Notes under the pieces: model-generated
Seen by the model: only the letters and a program-made list of their open reading frames with translations
Databases searched by the model: none
Told to the model about the DNA's origin: nothing
NCBI GenBank assembly: GCA_001655195.1
Contig: LPNY01000042.1
Coordinates: 37,544-98,560, forward strand
Origin: Arcobacter sp. EP1
Lineage (GTDB): Bacteria; Campylobacterota; Campylobacteria; Campylobacterales; Arcobacteraceae
DNA length: 61,017 bases
Reading direction: 5' to 3'
Position numbers and translations under genes: made by a program
Part shown: positions 14,921 to 21,108 of the stretch, in pieces
Numbering within the stretch: position 1 is the first letter of the stretch
How the letters are laid out: every line of letters starts with the position of its first letter

Positions 14921-15847
14921 ATGAGGATTACACTTTTAATTATACTAATAACCAATTTACTCTTTGCCAAAGAGTTGATTTCTCCGATTGAGGAAAATGT
15001 CATTGTTGATATTAATAAAGCACTGCTTGGGAAAAAGCTCTTTTTTGAAAAACGTTTAAGTAAAGATAATACAATCTCTTGTGCTTCTTGTCATATTATT
15101 GCAGAAGGTGGCGATGATAACAAAAGAGTTTCAGAAGGCATAAATAAAAAGAAGGGTTCATTAAATGCACCCACAGTACTGAATTCTAAATATAATTTTG
15201 TTCAATTTTGGGATGGGCGTGCTAAAAATTTAGAAGAGCAAGCTGCAGGACCAATCCATAACCCAATTGAAATGGGTAGTGACCTTAAAACTGTGGTCAA
15301 AGAGCTTAAAAAAGACCCTGGATATGTGAAACGATTTAGGGAGGTTTTTAATGATGTTATTAAACCAAACTATATCACCGAAGCTATTGCAGAGTTTGAA
15401 AATGCCCTTGTTACGCCAAACTCACGTTTTGATAAATTTTTAAAAGGTGATATCCATGCCATAACTGAGTATGAAAAAGAGGGCTTTGAACTCTTTAAAA
15501 GTTACGGTTGTATTTCGTGTCACAATGGCGTAAATATGGGAGGGAACCTTTTTCAGAAAATGGGGATTTTGAAGAAAAAGGACTACCAAAACAAAGAGTA
15601 CCTTGGGCGGTATAATGTGACAAAAGATGAAGAGGATAAGTTCTTTTATAAGGTACCAGGATTACGAAATATTGAACAAACAGCTCCCTATTTTCATAGT
15701 GGTGAAGTTAAAACACTCAAAGAAGCAGTAGAGTTAATGATGGAGTTTCAGTTGGGAATTAAACCCAACAGTAAAAGTGTTGAAAAGATTGAAGCATTTT
15801 TAAAAACACTGAACGGTGAAATGCCAAAAATTATGGAGCTCAAGTGA
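14921..15847 (+). CDS. Di-haem cytochrome c peroxidase (CCP/MauG family)
   Basis: A 308-aa protein with a signal peptide (about 1-17). It has two haem motifs: CASCH (Cys54, Cys57, His58) and CISCH (Cys197, Cys200, His201). FWDGRAKNLEEQAAGPIHNPIEMG and PGLRNIEQTAPYFHSGEVKTL are standard for bacterial di-haem peroxidases, which reduce H2O2 in the periplasm with electrons from small cytochromes c. Its stop codon overlaps the GTG start of a histidine kinase by four bases (GTGA), so enzyme and sensor are made together. Confidence 0.92.
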   Translation: MRITLLIILITNLLFAKELISPIEENVIVDINKALLGKKLFFEKRLSKDNTISCASCHIIAEGGDDNKRVSEGINKKKGSLNAPTVLNSKYNFVQFWDGRAKNLEEQAAGPIHNPIEMGSDLKTVVKELKKDPGYVKRFREVFNDVIKPNYITEAIAEFENALVTPNSRFDKFLKGDIHAITEYEKEGFELFKSYGCISCHNGVNMGGNLFQKMGILKKKDYQNKEYLGRYNVTKDEEDKFFYKVPGLRNIEQTAPYFHSGEVKTLKEAVELMMEFQLGIKPNSKSVEKIEAFLKTLNGEMPKIMELK

Positions 15848-17745
15848 AAAAATCACTTTTAATTTCTCTCTTTTTTATCATGCTTGTTGCCACACTTATT
15901 TTTAGTGTGAATAATGCTAACAGTAAAATCGATAACTTTTTTTTATTACATAAAAAGGTAGCTAAACTCATTGCAACTAATAAAAACTTTGATATTTTTA
16001 TGTCGGGAAATTTTGATTATAATAATTTTGACTATATTCAAGGGGATATTCGAACGATACAAGAAGAGAGTTCCTATATTGCGCAGGATGAGCTTTTTCA
16101 ATCCTTTTCAAATAAACAGTTGGTGAAATCTTTTAAAATAATTCAAGAAGATATAAAAACAAAAATAAACTATGTTAATCGAATTATCTCAAAAAGTGCG
16201 GTTTTGAATAACTCTTTTCGTTACATCCAAAATATGCAATCTCATACGTTTGATAAAGATGTCATTGCTATATATACGGGAGTTATAGGATTAGACCATA
16301 ATGATGCTGTAAATTTAATGCAACTGATGGATAACATAGAGGATTTTGTTCCAAAAGATGAAACTCAATCTATATTTCTTTCCCATTCAAAAATTATTAT
16401 TCAGTATTATGATACCTTTGAGAGAATTAAATTAGATGCTAAGAAATTAGAGTTAAGTACCAAGCTAGAGAAGTTTGAAAATAGTTTTACAAATCATTCG
16501 ACAAATATCATGAGAGGATTAAAGGGTGTCATTTGGTTATTGATGATTCTTCTATTCCTTGCATTAGTAGTTTTTCTCTATTATATTCATCAAATGACAC
16601 GAAAACAAATTGAGCTTAATCGGTTTAAAAAAGCTGTTGAAAACAGTGATAATATTGTTGTTATTACTGATAAAAATAAAAAAATACGCTATGTTAACGA
16701 AAGTTTTGAAAAAGTGAGTGGTTATAAATTAAAAGATGTCATAGGAGAATCACCTTCTATTCTCAAATCGGATATGCAACCTGAGTCTTTTTATATGGAT
16801 TTAAATACAACTATTTTTAATGGTGATAAATGGCAAGGTGAGTTTATTAATAAAAATAGAGATGGAAACATCAGTTATGAGCGAGCTTCTATTACCCCTA
16901 TTTTAAATGAACAAGGTGATATCGAAGAGTTCTTAGCTATCAAGTTAGATATTACTAAAGAGAAACAGACCCAAGAACTTTTAAAAGAAAAAGAGCATAT
17001 TTTAGCTCAACAATCTAAAATGATAGCCATGCGTGAAATGTTAGAGAGTATTGCCCATCAATGGCGACAACCCCTATCAACAATTTCAACTGCAGCTAGT
17101 GGAATGAAACTCAATAAAGAGTTTGAAACACTTACCAATGATAAGTTTGATGAGTTTATGGATGTCATTGTGAATCAAACGGTACAACTTTCAGAGACCA
17201 TTGATAATTTTAAAAACTATTTCAATACCAAAAATGAGAAGACGACCTTTCAGTTAAAATCAACCATTAATAAGATGATTGGATTAGTAGGCTACCGTTT
17301 AAATGATGACAAAATTGAAGTCTTAGTTGAAGGAGAAGATGTAACTCTAGAAGGTTTAGAAAATGAGTTTATTCAAGCACTAATTAATATCATTAATAAC
17401 TCGCAAGAAGCTCTACATAACAATGACCTTGAACACAAGTATATTTTTATTAAAACTTCAATAAAAGAGAATGAGGTCGAACTAAGCATCACTGATAGTG
17501 CAGGAGGTATCGGTGAGGATATTGTTGAACATGTTTTTGAACCTTATTTTACGACAAAACATGAGATGACTGGTACGGGTGTTGGGCTTTATATGACTTA
17601 TGAAATTGTGGTTAAACACTTTAATGGTGTAATTGATATTCGAAATACTCAATATGAGTATCGGGATAAAACTTATGCAGGGACACAAGTGGTGATTAGA
17701 ATACCAACATGTTTACATAATATCGAAGAGGAAAAACCTGTTTAG
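15844..17745 (+). CDS. Membrane sensor histidine kinase with PAS domain
   Basis: A 633-aa protein starting at GTG, overlapping the peroxidase stop. TM1 (about 5-22), an all-helical periplasmic domain (about 25-225), TM2 (about 228-249), PAS (about 260-375), then a dimerisation/phosphoacceptor region with AHQWRQPLS (His405) and an ATPase domain (about 515-625) ending in the G boxes DSAGGIGEDI and GTGVGLYM. The periplasmic part has no recognised ligand domain; its placement suggests sensing peroxide, the peroxidase or its redox state (inference). The cognate regulator is probably the next gene. Confidence 0.92.
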   Translation: MKKSLLISLFFIMLVATLIFSVNNANSKIDNFFLLHKKVAKLIATNKNFDIFMSGNFDYNNFDYIQGDIRTIQEESSYIAQDELFQSFSNKQLVKSFKIIQEDIKTKINYVNRIISKSAVLNNSFRYIQNMQSHTFDKDVIAIYTGVIGLDHNDAVNLMQLMDNIEDFVPKDETQSIFLSHSKIIIQYYDTFERIKLDAKKLELSTKLEKFENSFTNHSTNIMRGLKGVIWLLMILLFLALVVFLYYIHQMTRKQIELNRFKKAVENSDNIVVITDKNKKIRYVNESFEKVSGYKLKDVIGESPSILKSDMQPESFYMDLNTTIFNGDKWQGEFINKNRDGNISYERASITPILNEQGDIEEFLAIKLDITKEKQTQELLKEKEHILAQQSKMIAMREMLESIAHQWRQPLSTISTAASGMKLNKEFETLTNDKFDEFMDVIVNQTVQLSETIDNFKNYFNTKNEKTTFQLKSTINKMIGLVGYRLNDDKIEVLVEGEDVTLEGLENEFIQALINIINNSQEALHNNDLEHKYIFIKTSIKENEVELSITDSAGGIGEDIVEHVFEPYFTTKHEMTGTGVGLYMTYEIVVKHFNGVIDIRNTQYEYRDKTYAGTQVVIRIPTCLHNIEEEKPV

Positions 17746-17755
17746 ATAGTTTTGA

Positions 17756-17761
17756 TATAAT
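17756..17761 (+). promoter_or_regulatory. Internal -10 box giving a possible leaderless message
   Basis: Consensus TATAAT in the 22-base gap between kinase and response regulator, ending 6 bases before the ATG at 17768. A transcript started the usual 7 bases downstream would begin at the A of the start codon. No SD precedes that ATG, which fits leaderless translation. Confidence 0.4.
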
Positions 17762-17767
17762 GTCTTC

Positions 17768-18451
17768 ATGAATAAAGATGCCAATAAAAACATAAAAATT
17801 CTTTATGTGGAAGATGATGAAATCGCACGTGAAAACGGCGTAGAGTATTTAGAACACTATTTTAGTCATATTTATGAAGCCAGTGATGCGATTATGGCAT
17901 TACGTCTTTATGAAAAACATCAACCCCATATTATTATTAGTGATATACAAATGCCAAAACTCAATGGCTTAGAGTTTGTAAAACGAATCCGAGAACACGA
18001 TACCACAACTCAGGTGATTATTATTAGTGCTTTTAGTGATAAAGAGTACCTTTTAAAAGCTATTGAACTACAGCTAGTGAAGTATCTCATTAAACCTGTC
18101 AATGAGTCTGATTTTGAATCTGCCCTTACTCAATGTGTTGAGACTCTTAGTAATAATAGTTCAAATATTATTCCACTTGCTGAAAATATTATCTACGATA
18201 GTTTTAACCAAACACTACTGATTGATGGAGAGATTGTCAAACTAAGAACCAAAGAGTTATTACTGTTAGATCTTCTTATTAAACATAAAAGCCGTTATGT
18301 AACCTATAATGAAATTGAAAACGTAGTATGGGATGAGAGTGTTATGAGTAAAGATGCCCTCAAAACAGTGATGAAAAACCTCAAAGCAAAGTTATCCATG
18401 GTTCAAATTTTAAACTTATCTGGTACTGGGTATAAAATTGATATCAAATAA
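17768..18451 (+). CDS. OmpR-family response regulator
   Basis: A 227-aa protein. Receiver domain (about 7-125): acidic pair in YVEDDE, phosphoacceptor Asp59 in IISDIQMPKLNG, Ser/Thr region IIISAF, and Lys in KYLIKPVN. The C-terminal winged-helix domain (about 145-225) has LRTKELLLLDLLIKH and NVVWDE...LKTVMKNLKAKL, as in Trans_reg_C. It lies between two histidine kinases and may answer to both. Its stop lies inside the start of the next gene (14-base overlap). Confidence 0.92.
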   Translation: MNKDANKNIKILYVEDDEIARENGVEYLEHYFSHIYEASDAIMALRLYEKHQPHIIISDIQMPKLNGLEFVKRIREHDTTTQVIIISAFSDKEYLLKAIELQLVKYLIKPVNESDFESALTQCVETLSNNSSNIIPLAENIIYDSFNQTLLIDGEIVKLRTKELLLLDLLIKHKSRYVTYNEIENVVWDESVMSKDALKTVMKNLKAKLSMVQILNLSGTGYKIDIK

Positions 18452-19763
18452 TAGTTTAATCTTAGCCTACGGTATTACCTTTGGAATTGTTTTTATGACC
18501 ATGGTTTATACCCTCATTCGATACCTCTCTAGTAAAGAGAATATTTATTTGAGTTATGGGGCGATGCAACTCTTTTCGTTGATTTATATTGTTGCAAAGA
18601 GTGAACTTTTATCAGTGCCAAAAATGATTCAAGAATTAAGCCTTGTGGGTGCGAGTTTGAGTGCTATTGTGTTTGCAATTGGATTTTATCAAGGAAGATT
18701 TTTTCCAACTATTGAGAACTACAAAGGGTTAATAGTCAATACAATTTTACTAAACATTGTAATTCTTACAGCTTTTTATCATTATATGCTTTTTGAATAT
18801 CTACCTTATACAATTATTTATGCGATTCTATTTGTCTCTATTATTTTTAATTTTAAAGATGGTTTTAAACCCACATTAGTTTATGTTTGTGGTTGGTCTA
18901 TTTTTTGTTTTTTACTCTTTATTTTTGATTTTAAAACCTACTACAGTGATACAAATTTGTTAGATATTGTTTTAGTTGCTTTTGCCATTGAGGCAGTTTT
19001 ATTTACTATCTCTGTTGCGTTTAAATATAGCTCTTTGCAACAACAGAGTCAAAGTTATGAAAATATGTTATTACAACAAAGTAAATTAGCAAAAAGTGGA
19101 GAGATGATTGGCAATATTACTCACCAATTTCGTCAACCGTTGAATAATATCGCTTATATTTTAATGAATATGAAAAAACGGTATGAACAAAAAAGTTTAG
19201 ATGAAAACTATTTTGATAAAAAAATTAATCAAGCCAATCACCAATTGCAATTTATGTCAAAAACCATTGATGATTTTAAAAGTTTTTATGCCCCTTCTAA
19301 AGAGAAAACAGTGTTTGAAATTAAAGAGTGTATTGAAGAGTCTTTAACAATTGTTGATGCCAACTTAAAAAAACGTAATATTGATTTGCAATTAGCATTC
19401 CAAACCAATGAGGATATTCAAATATTTGGAATCAAAAATGAGCTCTCACAAGTGATTGTTGCCCTGCTTTCAAATGCTATTGAAGCCCTTGTGAATATAA
19501 CTGACCCTTGGATTAAAGTGCAGGTTTCAAGTACGAATGCTGAGGTGATTATTTATGTTGAAGACAATGCTAAAGGAATTGTTCCTAAAGAGTTAGAGAA
19601 GATTTTTGAACCCTATTTTTCTACAAAAAAAGAGGGAACAGGAATTGGACTGTATTTAAGCAAACTAATTATTGAACAGAGTTTTGAGGGTAATATTAGT
19701 GTTGAAAACAGTCGCCAAGGAGCACGATTCTCCTTGACGTTTGAAAAACTTAGTTTAAGCTAG
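18438..19763 (+). CDS. Seven-TM-type sensor histidine kinase
   Basis: A 441-aa protein with about seven hydrophobic segments in the first 200 residues (7TMR-DISM-like, without the extracellular domain), then a short coiled coil and a kinase core: THQFRQPLNN (His229), an N box ELSQVIVALLSNAIEAL and G boxes EDNAKGI and GTGIGLYLSK. The start is TTG 18438, overlapping the response regulator; the first ATG would cut the first TM. It is the second kinase for the same single regulator. Its end overlaps convergent ccoG by 14 bases. Confidence 0.88.
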   Translation: MISNNSLILAYGITFGIVFMTMVYTLIRYLSSKENIYLSYGAMQLFSLIYIVAKSELLSVPKMIQELSLVGASLSAIVFAIGFYQGRFFPTIENYKGLIVNTILLNIVILTAFYHYMLFEYLPYTIIYAILFVSIIFNFKDGFKPTLVYVCGWSIFCFLLFIFDFKTYYSDTNLLDIVLVAFAIEAVLFTISVAFKYSSLQQQSQSYENMLLQQSKLAKSGEMIGNITHQFRQPLNNIAYILMNMKKRYEQKSLDENYFDKKINQANHQLQFMSKTIDDFKSFYAPSKEKTVFEIKECIEESLTIVDANLKKRNIDLQLAFQTNEDIQIFGIKNELSQVIVALLSNAIEALVNITDPWIKVQVSSTNAEVIIYVEDNAKGIVPKELEKIFEPYFSTKKEGTGIGLYLSKLIIEQSFEGNISVENSRQGARFSLTFEKLSLS

Positions 19764-21108
19764 CTTTTTGAACTAAGTCATTTCTTGGGTAGATAAAGGA
19801 GAGTGTTTTAGTCTGTTGAATGGTTTTATCTTCTTTGGTTTGCATGATGATATTAACTTTAATGGCACTATCTTTACTATCTGAGATAAAGAGTCTCTTT
19901 TTTGTCTCCAATACAAGCACTTTTTTTGTTCGTCTTTTAGCTTTTAAAGTAAAAGGTTTAAATCGTTTGATTGCAAAGTTTTCATTGTCCTCTAACAAAA
20001 TTTCATACGTATAGGCTTTATCTTGTGTATTGTGTACGGTTAAGATATAGTTATTTCTCACCATTCCATTCTCTTTGATATTATAAAGTTTGGTTGTTTT
20101 ATTTATATTGAGTAAGAAAAACTCCTTTTTAGCGGCAAAAACGGCAGTAAGTACAAGAGAGAGAATCAGTGCTAAATAGTACATGTTATTACGTTTTGTA
20201 AAAAGTGAATTTTTAATTCTTTTTAATACGGTATTGCTGCTTCCCCAGTAAATCAATGACTCTTTACCCAGTTTTCCCATTACGCTACTACACGCATCAG
20301 AACACTCCAAACAGTTTATGCACTCTACTTGTAATCCTTTTCGTATATCAATATGAGTTGGACAGACTTTAACACAAGCTTCACATGTGGTACACTCTTC
20401 GTTGTTTTGCCACTGTTTTATATTTAAAATGGATTTTTCACCATTATTATAGATGTTTCCTCCTCGGTTTGTATTGTAAACAACTTGTTTCGTATCATCA
20501 TCATATAAAACGGATTGGATTCGTGAATAAGGGCACACATAGGTACAGAAGTTCTCTTTCATAAACACAATATCATAAAATAAAAAAGTAGCAGTACTAA
20601 TAATAAACATAATCATAAAACTGTGTTCATTTGGTTGCATGATATATGCAAAAAAATCTTTTGGCGGTATAAAATACCACATGAAGTTAGTTGAAATAAC
20701 CAAACAAAGAATTGCCCAAAGAAAAAGCGATAGGTATTTTCGAAAACCAACGGAGAAACTAGTGTATTGAATCTCTTTTTGTTTGTTTTTAATTTTTCTT
20801 AAATCCAGTAAGCCCCCTTCGATTAAGTCGCGGTAAATTACTCTAAAGATTGTTTGTGGACAGGCCCAACCACACCAAACTCGTCCAAAAATTGCTGTCA
20901 TAGCAAAGATGCCAATAAATAAAAACATCAGTAAAAAAGGCATAATAAAAAGTTCATTCATATTAAAGACTGCACCCATAAAATGAAACTGCAATTTATC
21001 AAAAGAGAGTAGTAATAAATGGTTTCCATTAATGGTAATAAATGGAGTTCCTAAAGTAAACAGAGTAATGAGTAGGTAAGTTAAATACCGTTTTTTTGTA
21101 TAAGTCAT
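19750..21108 (-). CDS. ccoG: CcoG, cbb3 oxidase copper/Fe-S accessory protein
   Basis: A 452-aa inner-membrane protein with about five TM segments. It has the CcoG/FixG/RdxA set of cysteine motifs: CGWACPQTIFR, CTYVCPYSRIQ, then two ferredoxin-type clusters CTTCEACVKVCP and CINCLECSDAC. A C-terminal Ig-like domain (about 340-452) is typical. CcoG reduces Cu(II) for assembly of cbb3-type cytochrome oxidase. The ccoNOQP genes are not in this window. Neighbouring peroxidase and kinases suggest a respiratory redox neighbourhood. Confidence 0.93.
   Translation of the reverse strand: MTYTKKRYLTYLLITLFTLGTPFITINGNHLLLLSFDKLQFHFMGAVFNMNELFIMPFLLMFLFIGIFAMTAIFGRVWCGWACPQTIFRVIYRDLIEGGLLDLRKIKNKQKEIQYTSFSVGFRKYLSLFLWAILCLVISTNFMWYFIPPKDFFAYIMQPNEHSFMIMFIISTATFLFYDIVFMKENFCTYVCPYSRIQSVLYDDDTKQVVYNTNRGGNIYNNGEKSILNIKQWQNNEECTTCEACVKVCPTHIDIRKGLQVECINCLECSDACSSVMGKLGKESLIYWGSSNTVLKRIKNSLFTKRNNMYYLALILSLVLTAVFAAKKEFFLLNINKTTKLYNIKENGMVRNNYILTVHNTQDKAYTYEILLEDNENFAIKRFKPFTLKAKRRTKKVLVLETKKRLFISDSKDSAIKVNIIMQTKEDKTIQQTKTLSFIYPRNDLVQKASLN

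Follow-up and report, generated by a model that had tools for sequence, protein, structure and literature searches.

The stretch of DNA analyzed here, hereafter the window, is a 61,017-nucleotide segment of the Arcobacter sp. EP1 genome (contig LPNY01000042.1, positions 37,544 to 98,560), and at positions 14921 to 19763 it carries a gene for a di-heme cytochrome c peroxidase (CCP), followed by genes for a receptor histidine kinase (HK1), a response regulator (RR), and a second histidine kinase (HK2). Genes were called from the open reading frame listing, Pfam profiles, and the sequence itself, and these agree on the four genes, their order, and their overlaps, as a first-pass annotation had described them:

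14921..15847, + strand: CCP, periplasmic di-heme peroxidase, 308 amino acids with an N-terminal signal-like segment; PF03150 (CCP_MauG), E = 8e-59
15844..17745, + strand: HK1, membrane receptor histidine kinase, 633 amino acids, GTG start; membrane helix, DAHL, membrane helix, PAS, HisKA, HATPase
17768..18451, + strand: RR, OmpR-type response regulator, 227 amino acids; a conserved module with HK2, apart from CCP-HK1
18438..19763, + strand: HK2, 7TMR-DISM-HATPase histidine kinase, 441 amino acids, TTG start; conserved partner of RR

The GTG start of HK1 overlaps the stop codon of CCP by 4 nt (GTGA), RR starts 22 nt past HK1, and HK2 overlaps RR by 14 nt. The conserved unit of the locus is the CCP-HK1 pair.

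A search of the Arcobacteraceae with the window CCP returned 59 matches, the non-self ones at 43 to 65% amino acid identity. The CCP-HK1 pair, its genes overlapping or a few bases apart, was found in genera g1 (the genus of the window), g17, g15, g3, g8, g12, g19, and g20 and in part of g2. In the neighborhoods that were fetched, the protein encoded after CCP has an HK1-like DAHL N terminus, and its output varies (kinase, GGDEF, or GGDEF-EAL). The same arrangement was recovered from a genome collection in Sulfurimonas, Sulfurovum, Hydrogenimonas, Persephonella, Magnetococcales, Zetaproteobacteria, Comamonas, Gallionella, Pseudomonas, Motiliproteus, Moorena, and Poribacteria. Because adjacency of CCP and receptor recurs in about 10 Arcobacteraceae genera and in several phyla, it is not a product of chance. 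Over all loci, 169 CCP genes are followed by a gene for a DAHL protein, with exactly the same 4-nt overlap in 88 pairs and a spacing of −23 to +9 nt in 165; part of these pairs were found through DAHL, so that 169 is not an unbiased rate. Pfam detected DAHL in 46 of the 47 complete proteins encoded downstream of relatives of the window CCP, and the output domains of these 47 proteins comprised 27 GGDEF, 27 EAL, 18 HATPase, 3 receiver, and 1 methyl-accepting chemotaxis protein (MCP) domain. In the window genome, the single DAHL match is HK1, and no DAHL gene follows the three other CCP genes.

In a reverse test, above-cutoff DAHL genes were chosen without regard to CCP from 299 evenly drawn Pseudomonadota genomes and 249 genomes of the window's order, Campylobacterales. 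A CCP gene lay directly upstream of 44 of 48 DAHL genes in the Pseudomonadota (all 28 of the best matches and 16 of the 20 weaker ones) and of 48 of 51 in the order (28/30 and 20/21). The rule is weak in cyanobacteria, where just one of three unselected above-cutoff DAHL genes has a CCP gene beside it. A maximum likelihood tree of a CCP-sampled set (113 linked and 34 unlinked proteins) required 2 changes of the linkage label, versus a mean of 30.8 when labels were shuffled (0 of 500 shuffles were as low), which places the linked CCPs in what is essentially a single clade; a group of unlinked CCPs with longer open frames, from Bacteroidales, Vibrio, and others, branches inside or beside it. At the level of gene evolution, these comparisons support a specific tie between CCP and the periplasmic DAHL domain of the receptor, with CCP and DAHL constant while outputs change.

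Several variants of the layout were encountered. Open frames of 1251 to 1269 amino acids in genus g9 resembled a CCP-receptor fusion, which an in-frame TAG before an ATG ruled out; in these genomes (L096, L097, L098, and L214) the receptor ATG immediately follows the CCP stop in the same frame. In several Arcobacteraceae (L110, L111, L231, L232, L233, and L238), CCP and a DAHL-like kinase are followed by another CCP, which belongs to the classical clade, and in L110 and L111 a gene for an OmpR-type regulator precedes the first CCP. A membrane DAHL-like protein of 186 to 192 amino acids without an output domain, which might be a truncated receptor or an adaptor, follows CCP in L114 (5636-6214) and L230, and a 390-amino-acid DAHL-only protein in which Pfam finds no output domain does so in L141 (4930-6099). 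In L043 (6783-8702; genus g3), a stop splits the HK1 orthologue into frames of 196 and 418 amino acids, possibly through receptor decay. In the CCP-linked DAHL set (alignment A3), an MCP output and a CZB zinc-binding domain were each matched once. Elsewhere in the window genome (contig C206, L236), the gene after another CCP encodes a 603-amino-acid membrane multiheme cytochrome and overlaps that CCP gene by 14 nt.

The first-pass annotation had read the locus as one regulator served by two kinases, and while the synteny of CCP and HK1 recurs in relatives, the complete CCP-HK1-RR-HK2 run was found just in genera g1 and g15 among the genomes examined. The four genes are not conserved together: the two pairs are separate in g3 and in g17, a sister genus whose CCP groups with that of the window (98% SH-aLRT) and in which RR-HK2 lies 3 to 4 kb from CCP-HK1, between the same flanking genes. 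Genus g20 has CCP-HK1 and no close RR. Matches to RR (E ≤ 1e-35) are present in 89 of 104 genomes of the family, the best at 55 to 71% identity, and in each of the nine best-matching relatives that were examined, the gene after RR encodes an HK2 that is 62 to 71% identical to that of the window, mostly with the same upstream PMM gene. The dimerization and histidine phosphotransfer (DHp) helices of the kinases are unlike (STISTAASG in HK1 versus NNIAYILMN in HK2), and HK1 is alike in genomes with and without an RR beside it. Since each pair occurs without the other and the DHp helices differ, the combination of two kinases with one regulator is best regarded as a local juxtaposition, and on these comparisons RR-HK2 is an independent two-component system, so the two-kinase claim is not supported for the locus as a system. 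Integration of HK1, as a peroxide branch, with HK2 through phosphorylation of the one RR would agree with the short gaps and overlaps of the four co-directional genes in g1 and g15 and with an independent RR-CCP-HK-CCP cluster with an OmpR-type regulator in some relatives, and it would be compatible with a sensory role of CCP-HK1; against the many relatives with RR-HK2 and no CCP-HK1, the separate RR-HK2 pair of g17, the lack of a close RR in g20, and, as indirect evidence, the helix differences, we consider it unlikely. RR-HK2 could be cotranscribed with CCP-HK1 in the window genome, where it lies directly downstream. A scan for promoters and terminators gave 27 matches versus 25.9 expected from shuffled sequence, which is no excess, and a TATAAT immediately 5′ of RR is uninformative. 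The neighboring gene beyond HK2 is:

19750..21108, − strand: CcoG, convergent with HK2 and overlapping its end

The peroxidase carries the following sites:

15080..15094, + strand: first heme motif, CASCH (residues 54 to 58), of the peroxidatic heme
15269..15271, + strand: catalytic Glu117 (equivalent of Glu114), invariant in alignment A1
15509..15523, + strand: second heme motif, CISCH (residues 197 to 201), of the electron transfer heme
15737..15739, + strand: Met273, equivalent of the axial ligand Met275

The nearest solved structures to the window CCP are di-heme CCPs (1iqc, E = 3e-83), and it has their full set of two CXXCH motifs, Trp, Gln, and Glu catalytic residues, and Met axial ligand. 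These residues are widely kept among linked CCPs, with the heme motifs in 163 of 163, Trp and Gln in 159 each, Glu in 151, and Met in 155. The distal (activation) His of classical CCPs has no equivalent in the window CCP, in which SEGINKKKG replaces SIGHGWQKG, and it is present in 0 of the 163 linked CCPs, so that a reductive activation step is presumably absent. Escherichia coli YhjA likewise has no distal ligand and needs no reductive activation, and substrate can bind when it is oxidized (PMC10301912). By analogy with YhjA, which differs from the window enzyme and its two heme motifs in having a third heme and a membrane anchor, linked CCPs should be constitutively open.

The input domain and the remaining domains of HK1 are arranged as follows:

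15991..16503, + strand: DAHL periplasmic sensor domain, residues 50 to 220; PF19443, 39.0 bits (cutoff, 38)
16024..16032, + strand: N-F-D motif of DAHL, residues 61 to 63, conserved with CCP linkage
16213..16224, + strand: Ser124 to Tyr127 of DAHL, conserved with CCP linkage
16384..16386, + strand: His181 of DAHL, present in 129 of 165 linked receptors and lost in g2 orthologues without CCP
16621..16947, + strand: PAS domain, PF00989, E = 2e-14
17026..17706, + strand: HisKA and HATPase (AHQWRQPLSTIST)

The DAHL domain of HK1 passes the curated PF19443 cutoff. Its AlphaFold model (pLDDT, 91) is all helix, with long terminal helices at 2 to 54 and 204 to 248, and predicts an all-helical domain set between two membrane helices, with a helical bimodular fold like those of TorS and McpS. 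The TorS sensor domain is the top fold match of this model (Z score, 13.7) and of the model of a Pseudomonas DAHL domain (pLDDT, 93; Z score, 17.7), although helical bundles often score high Z, and the next matches are McpS (Z scores, 13.5 to 16.6) and PilJ. TorS is the receptor for the periplasmic protein TorT, and McpS binds malate directly, so the predicted fold allows both a protein partner and a small ligand as the input. A periplasmic protein as sensor input, which we propose here, would liken CCP-HK1 to TorT-TorS; TorT, however, has a periplasmic binding protein fold, whereas the partner here would be a di-heme peroxidase. The likeness to McpS and its relatives with HBM domains likewise lies in the modeled fold, the difference being the direct binding of malate by McpS.

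Across the 169 linked DAHL receptors, the consensus positions are Asn/His61, Tyr/Phe62, Asp63, Lys107, Asn123, Ser124, Tyr127, and His181, and no Cys, Trp, Tyr, or Met is invariant. A thiol switch was not supported, DAHL having no conserved Cys. Since MauG and MbnH oxidize protein substrates and the window CCP belongs to the same CCP_MauG superfamily, CCP might instead modify DAHL covalently. MauG carries Tyr at the position of the axial Met of CCPs; such a ligand was not supported here, given Met273 and the Met of the 155 linked CCPs noted above. The window CCP also stays below the MauG and MbnH model cutoffs (153 bits versus 444 and 161 versus 363, respectively), and the receptors offer no invariant oxidizable side chain of the four kinds just named, Tyr62 being Phe in HK1 of the window. 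Covalent modification is thus highly improbable.

DAHL proteins without a CCP provided a comparison set of 10, which are phylogenetically nonindependent. Hydrophobic DAHL positions show equal conservation whether CCP is present (0.73) or absent (0.74). Polar and aromatic positions differ, with Phe/Tyr62 in 90% of receptors with CCP versus 3/10 without, Asp63 in 99% versus 6/10, Ser124 in 91% versus 4/10, and Tyr127 in 82% versus 2/10 (Fisher P values of about 2e-5 to 2e-4, uncorrected and from this small, nonindependent sample). In genus g2, L047 has the CCP-HK1 pair, and L048, L049, and L050 encode an HK1 that is 59 to 61% identical to that of L047, with no remnant of CCP. The adjoining genes of L047 and L050 match in size and order, and at this one locus CCP was lost or gained between relatives. 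The HK1 proteins without CCP have lost Ala119 and His181 (3/3), Asn61 and Asn123 (2/3), and Asp63 (1/3), so that the receptor can persist without CCP, but with drift at its polar positions. Unlinking of the peroxidase in close relatives, named at the outset as a result that would count against a sensory role, was thus found in just these three genomes, in which DAHL residues have drifted.

Directly upstream of the DAHL gene of L361, which is among these 10, a gene for a mono-heme cytochrome c (1012-1344) takes the place of CCP, and most of the motif is kept. This case bears on the idea that the peroxidase merely shapes the local peroxide level and leaves the sensing of peroxide or redox state to DAHL or PAS, with no contact between the proteins. 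The retained catalytic residues of CCP would suit such an arrangement, but the exchange of the peroxidase for a cytochrome in L361, the lack of a conserved Cys in DAHL, and the absence of PAS from several DAHL proteins make it improbable.

A known system appears, from published descriptions, to be an instance of the CCP-DAHL pair. The Campylobacter jejuni CCP gene docA lies immediately upstream of docB, which encodes Tlp10; loss of docA lowers colonization, and the two CcP loci make no contribution to peroxide resistance (PMC3156733). Tlp10 has a DAHL domain, which is reported to detect several ligand classes, including small molecules such as malate (PMC9796306). The peroxidase gene stands directly upstream of the DAHL receptor gene, and six genomes of the order (1.5 to 1.6 Mb) have the same layout of CCP and a DAHL protein of about 600 amino acids, identified by Pfam as a DAHL-MCP in the two of two that were scanned. 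The output there is a chemoreceptor and in the window a kinase, and the parts of the published work available do not treat the pair as one sensor. A study of the CCP_MauG sequence similarity network does not mention linkage to sensors or kinases (PMC6405878), and in the open-access literature we found no paper stating a general CCP-DAHL rule. The impression of the first-pass annotation that no system of this form had been described holds only in part, since C. jejuni docA-docB/Tlp10 seems to be a described case of the architecture with a chemoreceptor as its output.

Tlp10 also provides an argument for the main rival explanation, that DAHL senses a small molecule itself (carboxylates, sugars, or amino acids) and that the peroxidase, coexpressed with the receptor but not in contact with it, is an enzyme serving the same physiology, such as peroxide respiration where oxic and anoxic zones meet. 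The closeness of the DAHL fold to malate-binding McpS and the existence of DAHL receptors that stand alone are in its favor. It does not readily account for a CCP-DAHL linkage that persists across phyla and output swaps, for the loss of polar DAHL positions without CCP while the core stays, or for the reported lack of a CcP contribution to peroxide resistance in C. jejuni, and we regard direct ligand sensing as a serious but rather unlikely explanation.

Rather, the observations made here on gene linkage, exchange of outputs, clade structure, conserved residues, and similarity of fold point to CCP-HK1 as a two-gene sensory unit with the peroxidase as the periplasmic input partner of the DAHL receptor, a reading to which we assign a probability of about 60%. 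The peroxidase would be exported to the periplasm, where, with two hemes, an intact catalytic site, and a peroxidatic heme left open by the absence of the distal His, it would react with peroxide, the electrons being supplied by donors in the periplasm. The DAHL domain of HK1 would read the reaction or redox state of the peroxidase, probably through direct contact between the proteins in which the Asn-Phe/Tyr-Asp motif, Ser124/Tyr127, and His181 take part; from there the signal would pass through the second membrane helix and PAS to the kinase core of HK1. In other bacteria, the same CCP-DAHL head would drive GGDEF/EAL or chemoreceptor outputs. The earlier proposal that the peroxidase is part of the sensing apparatus is in this way supported at the level of gene evolution, by a CCP that stays tied to DAHL across output swaps; physical contact, peroxide as the stimulus, and the direction of signaling are what we infer.

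Several observations weigh against this sensory unit. The detection of malate reported for Tlp10 implies that DAHL may work without a protein partner. Some DAHL receptors, though few, have no CCP, among them the HK1 orthologue that persists in three g2 genomes; besides being few and related, the CCP-less proteins include g2 orthologues that retain Tyr62 and Ser124. HK1 of the window itself lacks two common DAHL residues, with Asn and Ile at positions 112 and 115, and Glu or Met is missing from some linked CCPs.

Whether DAHL domains are peroxidase reading in general is, in our estimate, an even question. If so, DAHL kinases, cyclic di-GMP enzymes, and chemoreceptors (C. jejuni Tlp10 among them) would in several phyla have a periplasmic di-heme peroxidase as their dedicated sensory subunit, which through contact with the receptor would report peroxide or the flow of electrons in the periplasm. 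These receptors form a widespread family, and small molecules are where their input has been sought; the signal would then come from a peroxidase, which would explain the role of docA in C. jejuni colonization although the CcPs give no peroxide resistance. A simple rule, a CCP gene directly upstream of a DAHL gene, would be gained, together with candidate interface residues.

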